Source: a bacterium
Lineage (GTDB): Bacteria; JAMCPX01
Assembly (NCBI GenBank): GCA_021792615.1
Contig: JAJYUJ010000036.1
Span: 1-23,885 of the forward strand
Direction: 5' to 3'
Length of the DNA stretch: 23,885 nt
Numbering within the stretch: the first letter of the stretch is position 1; every line of letters starts with the position of its first letter. The position numbers and the translations under genes were made by a program. Below the pieces are notes generated by a model that had not been told where the DNA came from, ran no database searches, and saw nothing but the letters and a program-made list of their open reading frames with translations. Below are positions 22,868-23,885 of this stretch, piece by piece.

Positions 22868-23836
22868 ATGAATATCCAGGACGTTATTTTCACATTAAAC
22901 AAATTCTGGTCAAACAGCGGATGTGTTGTCGATCAACCGTACGATGTTGAGGTTGGTGCGGGGACATTTCATCCATCTACCTTTTTAAGGGTACTCAACC
23001 CGTCACCATGGTCAGCGGCTTATGTCCAGCCGTCCAGAAGGCCCACGGATGGCCGGTACGGTGAAAATCCAAACAGACTTCAAAGATATTTTCAGTATCA
23101 GGTTATTATCAAGCCTTCGCCTCCCACTATTCAGGATAGGTATCTTAAAAGCCTCGATGCCCTGGGGATAAAAATAAAAAAACACGACATACGGTTTGTA
23201 GAGGACGATTGGGAGTCTCCAACACTCGGTGCCTGGGGGCTTGGATGGGAGGTTTGGCTCGACGGCATGGAGATTACCCAGTTTACGTACTTTCAGCAGG
23301 CAGGGGGTGTTGATCTGGCATCCATTCCGGTAGAGATCACCTATGGGATCGAGCGTATCTCCATGTACCTGCAGGGAGTTGAGAACGTCTTTGACCTCAA
23401 ATGGAACAACAAGGTCAAGTACGGAGATCTATTCAAAGAAAATGAACACCAGCAATCGATGTATAACTTCGAATCTGCCGATATAAACAGGCTTTTTTTT
23501 CTTTTTAATGAGTACGAGAAGGAATCTCTGCGGCTCACCGGAGAAGGGCTGTTCTTGCCGGCTTATGACTGTACGCTGAAATGTTCTCACCTTTTCAACC
23601 TGCTCGATGCTCGGCGCGCCATATCTGTTGCAGAAAGGGCACGGTACATCGGCAGGGTCCGGGCGATGGCTAAGGGTGTTGCACAGGCTTATAAAGAAAC
23701 TCAAGATTCAAAATTCAAGATTAAAGAGTCAGAGCCAAAAACTCAAGATTCAAAATTCAAGATTAAAGAGTCAGAGCCGAAAACTCAAGATTCAGGACTC
23801 AACTTTAAAAATGCAGAAAAAAGAGATTCAAAATGA
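22868..23836 (+). CDS. glyQ: Glycyl-tRNA synthetase alpha subunit with repeat-derived tail
   Basis: GlyQ is the catalytic alpha chain of the bacterial alpha2beta2 glycyl-tRNA synthetase. The core (1-277) is canonical: [81 protein letters not shown] and [18 protein letters not shown]. After residue 277 the usual short end of the family, from memory a REALGFP-like motif, is missing; instead there are two copies of a 14-residue repeat ([14 protein letters not shown]), part of a third and a Lys-rich end, for 322 residues in total. The tail is disordered in appearance. The stop overlaps the glyS start as ATGA. AGGCGG lies upstream of the ATG. Confidence 0.96.
23699..23800 (+). repeat. Tandem 42-bp repeat in the 3' end of glyQ
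   Basis: Unit 1 (23699-23740) and unit 2 (23741-23782) differ at one base; a third begins at 23783 and diverges after about 12 bases. The unit is AT-rich and internally repetitive (ATTCAAAATTCAAGATT). 42 bases is 14 codons, so copies add in frame. Confidence 0.92.
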
Positions 23837-23885
23837 AAGTATTGCATAGTCCGGAACTCTTTATAGAAATTGGCGTTGATCGGAA
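23833..23885 (+). CDS. glyS: Glycyl-tRNA synthetase beta subunit, first 17 codons
   Basis: The ATG at 23833 overlaps the glyQ stop as ATGA and opens a frame that continues off the window. The visible residues include [10 protein letters not shown], resembling the LLxEIGTEE start of GlyS, the beta chain that binds tRNA. The repeat-derived end of glyQ leads directly into this start. Identification rests on the context and this short match. Confidence 0.85.

Follow-up and report, generated by a model that had tools for sequence, protein, structure and literature searches.

A 42-bp repeat at the 3' end of glyQ is probably an in-frame copy of a genus-specific family of dispersed heptamer arrays

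The DNA analyzed here (the window; 23,885 nt, contig C65 of genome G000) ends with glyQ at 22868–23836, followed by the first bases of glyS. Two NCBIfam models, PRK09348 and TIGR00388, match GlyQ above their cutoffs and end at residues 276–281. PDB 1j5w was aligned across residues 1–280, and the best solved homologs likewise reach residue 280. The features at this end of the window are as follows.

22868–23698, + strand: glyQ core (GlyRS alpha subunit, residues 1–277; NCBIfam PRK09348 and TIGR00388, PDB 1j5w)
23692–23698, + strand: leader TAAAGAA preceding the heptamer array, its TAA out of frame here (AAGAA enrichment; leader consensus TGAAGAA)
23697–23738, + strand: 42-bp unit 1, six heptamers (TRF; identity to unit 2, 41/42)
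23739–23780, + strand: 42-bp unit 2 (block comparison)
23781–23822, + strand: 42-bp unit 3, diverged, homologous to the tail in G003, the closest relative (30/42 against unit 2; alignment)
23823–23836, + strand: end of glyQ, RDSK and stop codon TGA at 23834–23836 (G003 ends alike)
23833–23879, + strand: start of glyS, sharing an ATGA overlap with glyQ and continuing in contig C13 (121-bp exact overlap with C13)
23880–23885, no strand: TCGGAA, probable adapter remnant or misassembled tip (conflicts with C13 and G003)

An array at the glyQ 3' end had been reported in an initial annotation of the window, and TRF places it there as well (23697–23794; period 42 bp, 2.3 copies, 98% match). That annotation counted two units and a partial third. 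The tandem 42-bp units stand, but position-wise comparison of three 42-bp blocks from 23697 (1 vs. 2, 41/42; 2 vs. 3, 30/42; 1 vs. 3, 31/42) indicates that the third is a complete, diverged unit. All three units are in the glyQ frame, which remains open to its TGA, and the glyS ATG at 23833 preserves the 4-nt overlap described earlier. The tail is AT rich and unlike the gene, as had been noted, with a G+C content of 31% vs. 48% in the core. AlphaFold assigns pLDDT below 50 to residues 289–322, and the repeat tail is predicted to be disordered.

Beneath the 42-bp unit lies a 7-nt period, with match fractions of 0.53–0.56 over the tail at lags of 7, 14, 21, 28, and 35. For units 2 and 3 together, the mean match over lags 7, 14, and 21 is 0.53, compared with at most 0.33 in windows of the core, and the heptamer periodicity was equalled by none of 5000 codon shuffles. 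Thus the 42-bp unit comprises six heptamers and is also 2 × 21 bp, 21 being the common period of the heptamer and the codon. The heptamers are degenerate, of the form AYTMAAR, and are led by TGAAGAA or TAAAGAA.

Contig C13 and the window share 121 exact bases, from inside unit 2 to 23879. Beyond this point the window reads TCGGAA and C13 reads AGAGAT; C13 proceeds through an intact glyS reading frame, and G003 sides with C13. TCGGAA at the end of the window is therefore probably an artifact and not genomic. At the tip, GATCGGAA looks like what we take to be a common adapter sequence. Because the contigs agree from within the array onward and conflict only in the last six bases, an assembly artifact, named at the outset as an outcome that would speak against the repeat, is unlikely for the array itself. 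Collapse of a longer array during assembly was judged unlikely on the same grounds.

The 42-bp unit had been said to resemble dispersed intergenic repeats, and a search of the genome bears this out: a 17-mer of the unit occurs at 22 sites with at most one mismatch (reversed control, 0), and the 118-bp array returned 47 matches as a BLAST query. The strict heptamer pattern was found throughout the genus (five of five genomes) but in 0 of 36 other genomes. When AAGAA followed by three strict heptamers was sought in 386 genomes, three contained it, all within the genus, and 0 of the 377 genomes outside the family did. A looser pattern gave 4–19 matches per genome of the genus and one in each of two unrelated genomes; four other members of the family had none. 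In G005, a genome of a sister genus, strict arrays are absent genome wide and decayed forms are visible. Altogether, 93 arrays, most of them intergenic, were detected in sampled loci of five genomes, a count that leaves out a duplicate contig end and is not a complete census; the genes around them are simple ORF calls. AAGAA stands directly before 47 of the 93 arrays, compared with a background of 6.7%, and the upstream consensus is TGAAGAA. As judged from sequence, the arrays form a dispersed family restricted to one genus, whose members appear to consist of degenerate AYTMAAR heptamers behind a leader, (T)(G/A)AAGAA. At two loci on contig C22 of G000 (L056 and L057), AYTAAAG-rich arrays lie beside another dispersed element, which has G+C-rich inverted repeats (e.g., CCCCTCCCTTGACGGGAGGGG) and several copies in ∼30 kb.

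Members of the family lie in the open frames of GlyQ, thymidylate kinase (Tmk), PurN, NadE, a DegT-type aminotransferase, CobQ, RtcB, and others. At the level of open frames, conserved proteins thus appear to carry in-frame copies. Domain models of the array-bearing proteins end before the inserts or span them, and several in-frame arrays occupy orthologous sites across species. Tmk has C-terminal repeats of 3 × 17 aa (51 bp) in G000 only, among genomes with the gene. Repeats precede PurN in frame, at its N terminus, in G000, G002, and G004. NadE has two internal array sites, clear in G000 and G004 and absent in other genera, and the DegT-type aminotransferase has a C-terminal array in the same two genomes. 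Further in-frame arrays in G004 lie in CobQ, RtcB, a CusB-like adaptor, and an IclR-type regulator. Three of the G000 features are located as follows.

L054, 858–1688, contig C67, − strand: Tmk with repeat tail, which is missing in relatives having the gene
L174, 171–1079, contig C39, + strand: PurN with three 28-aa (84-bp) repeats ahead of it in the same frame
L173, 23–232, contig C43, − strand: near-identical repeat block ending the contig, where C39 and C43 therefore probably join

Among arrays within genes, 23 of 25 (raw count) are in sense orientation, and the two exceptions are short overlaps with ORF ends; the weak cases (C8, C18, C6, and RdgB) were left out of the argument. Whichever of the three sense frames is read, (ATTCAAA)n and its common variants yield a single cyclic heptapeptide (e.g., IQNSKFK), whereas each of the three antisense frames contains stops. 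This asymmetry explains why every in-gene array that we rely on is sense. Furthermore, because the three sense frames yield the same cyclic peptide, a 7-base repeat can extend a protein whatever the frame in which it lands, and would offer a simple route from noncoding repeat DNA to protein.

The glyQ/glyS junction was compared among relatives represented by MAG-quality genomes, one per species. In G003 (GlyQ identity 93%, core DNA identity 96%, 14 of 119 fourfold sites different), the tail is YKQTQDSTLNSKNEESRDSK and the ATGA overlap is identical. This tail aligns with unit 3 and the last tail residues of G000, the difference being exactly 84 bp, or two 42-bp units. G000 thus has three units and G003 has one, so that these close relatives differ in copy number by a multiple of three bases, and an expansion of this kind is what the initial annotation had anticipated. 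It had also held that the repeat replaces the normal end of glyQ, which the alignment contradicts: the native tail is retained downstream of two extra units, so that the end of GlyQ is extended, not replaced.

Elsewhere in the family, the glyQ 3' end of G004 carries an array of five heptamers and then other sequence, the GlyQ tail of G002 is short, that of G005 (RETQNSESRG) looks like a decayed array, and those of G006–G008 are short with no clear heptamers. The residues following the conserved Tyr number 47, 19, 36, 10, 10, 12, 12, and 19 in eight genomes of the family, and the spacing of the junction itself varies within it. The tail thus varies in length and copy number, as the initial annotation had proposed to check, and the conserved nonrepetitive tail that would have contradicted it was not found in these relatives. 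Its idea of a repeat that invaded or expanded at the junction holds for a recent, local 84-bp expansion; the array itself predates the species, with only the two added units being recent. Overall, that interpretation is partly supported. Past its heptamers, the G004 tail (L025) continues into another repeat-like stretch, GATCAAGGGTCCAAGGGATCAAGGG.

The tail is probably an in-frame copy of the genus-specific dispersed heptamer family, largely neutral, prone to slippage, and tolerated at protein ends and loops. The two extra 42-bp units may have arisen by slippage or tandem duplication, and the reading frame and the glyS overlap would have survived since 84 bp adds whole codons. Overlaps as short as ATGA are important for termination–reinitiation, and coupling declines within some 20 nt (PMC10666635); such coupling at glyQ/glyS would select against out-of-frame changes. 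Some GlyRS have their alpha and beta subunits connected by a natural linker (PMC9908026), so the alpha C terminus is a plausible place to tolerate additions, and a disordered tail may be close to neutral for the enzyme.

Mobility resembling that of Rickettsia palindromic elements could also have brought the repeat to glyQ, as a MITE-like element served by a transposase in trans that inserted in frame and then expanded. The conserved 5' leader TGAAGAA and the new Tmk site, seen solely in G000 among genomes with the gene, are consistent with such an element, as are filled and empty sites. Downstream of the L055 gene, G005 has the stop codon TAG, 11 nt, and the next ATG; the locus is filled in G000, G003, and G002, with ∼80 bp from stop to ATG in G000 and G003. 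However, the arrays vary in length and show no constant 3' end, and they are directional heptamers without terminal inverted repeats or a stem-loop. No target-site duplication could be resolved at L055, the one filled/empty pair, where a TA duplication was considered and dropped. A mobile element is an unlikely source. We also abandoned the notion that the stop codon invariably comes from the element, since at an E1-alpha-like gene the position of the stop is shared by all relatives.

The placement of the arrays relative to genes could indicate a role in mRNA. Arrays that start no more than 12 nt past a stop codon are predominantly sense (22 sense vs. 3 antisense, P = 1.6×10−4), also after apparent orthologs were removed by eye (16 vs. 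2, P = 0.0013). Such a post-stop start is found in 22 of 42 sense arrays, and a position within 12 nt before a start codon in 2 of 37. The arrays might then be functional cis elements, unstructured A-rich RNA between a stop and the next ribosome-binding site (bound by Rho or by an RNA-binding protein, for example), with translation as a by-product. The array downstream of the E1-alpha-like gene is present in G000, G001, G003, and G004 and decayed in G005; at one locus the array and spacer differ at only about two positions between G000 and G003; and TAACTGA heptamers of Beggiatoaceae have been proposed as regulator sites (PMC4679880). On the other side, heptamers turn over from one species to the next in both content and number, the AYTAAAG variants are distinct from AYTCAAR, and translation would be expected for the many arrays located within proteins. 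We regard a cis role with incidental translation as distinctly improbable. Still more doubtful, in our view, is a genus-wide functional RNA element after stops (e.g., at transcript ends or in intercistronic coupling) that is also translated as a frame-independent heptapeptide linker; were it so, one sequence would act as a linker in some genes and remain an untranslated signal in others. Even so, the retention of arrays by several species between the same genes, together with their post-stop placement, could reflect function instead of neutrality.

The tails of G005 and G006, which begin YRETQ and YRDSK and resemble an array start, suggest that the glyQ array might have formed locally, through slippage at an ordinary 3' end, its likeness to the dispersed heptamers being coincidental, and G005 has no strict arrays genome wide; yet the leader and heptamers recur at tens of sites across the genus, and the strict pattern is found in 0/377 genomes outside the family, which makes this very improbable.

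Several known systems can be compared with the dispersed heptamer family. Rickettsia palindromic elements (RPEs; Ogata et al. 2000; reviewed in PMC2229807) are 105–146 bp long and carry terminal inverted repeats as well as stem-loops. Like the arrays, they are small dispersed repeats, mainly intergenic, that also run in frame within conserved housekeeping proteins; here, by contrast, the element is a heptamer array of variable length lacking terminal inverted repeats, and it is not an RPE. TAACTGA heptamers of marine Beggiatoaceae, Cyanobacteria, and Bacteroidetes lie just upstream of starts; their forward strand has stops in all frames, and a few of the repeats occur in ORFs (PMC4679880). They are likewise dispersed, gene-oriented direct heptanucleotides at many intergenic sites, with strain-specific copy number. 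The present family differs in sequence (AYTMAAR), in lying just downstream of stops, and in its open sense strand. A literature search for heptamers after stop codons and for in-frame repeat families returned only the TAACTGA report (PMC4679880) and papers on RPEs and MITEs.

The 42-, 51-, and 84-bp in-frame units that vary among relatives resemble coding VNTRs or long simple sequence repeats; VNTRs, however, are locus specific, and here one sequence family occurs at many unrelated genes. Cyanobacterial STRR heptanucleotide repeats are short tandem heptamers scattered intergenically, and their sequence differs from that of the AYTMAAR family. To our knowledge, STRRs are not characterized by in-frame copies in a wide range of essential enzymes. 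The arrays would add to these systems a nonpalindromic, heptamer-built kind of dispersed repeat that runs in frame through conserved enzymes. The orthologous inserts in NadE, PurN, and GlyQ map the natural insertion tolerance of essential enzymes, and their presence across species would permit a direct test of neutral vs. functional repeats.

By inspection, inverted pairs were seen only where two arrays face each other. The facing arrays at L059 (954–1023) and at L167 (849–876 and downstream) could form an imperfect hairpin.
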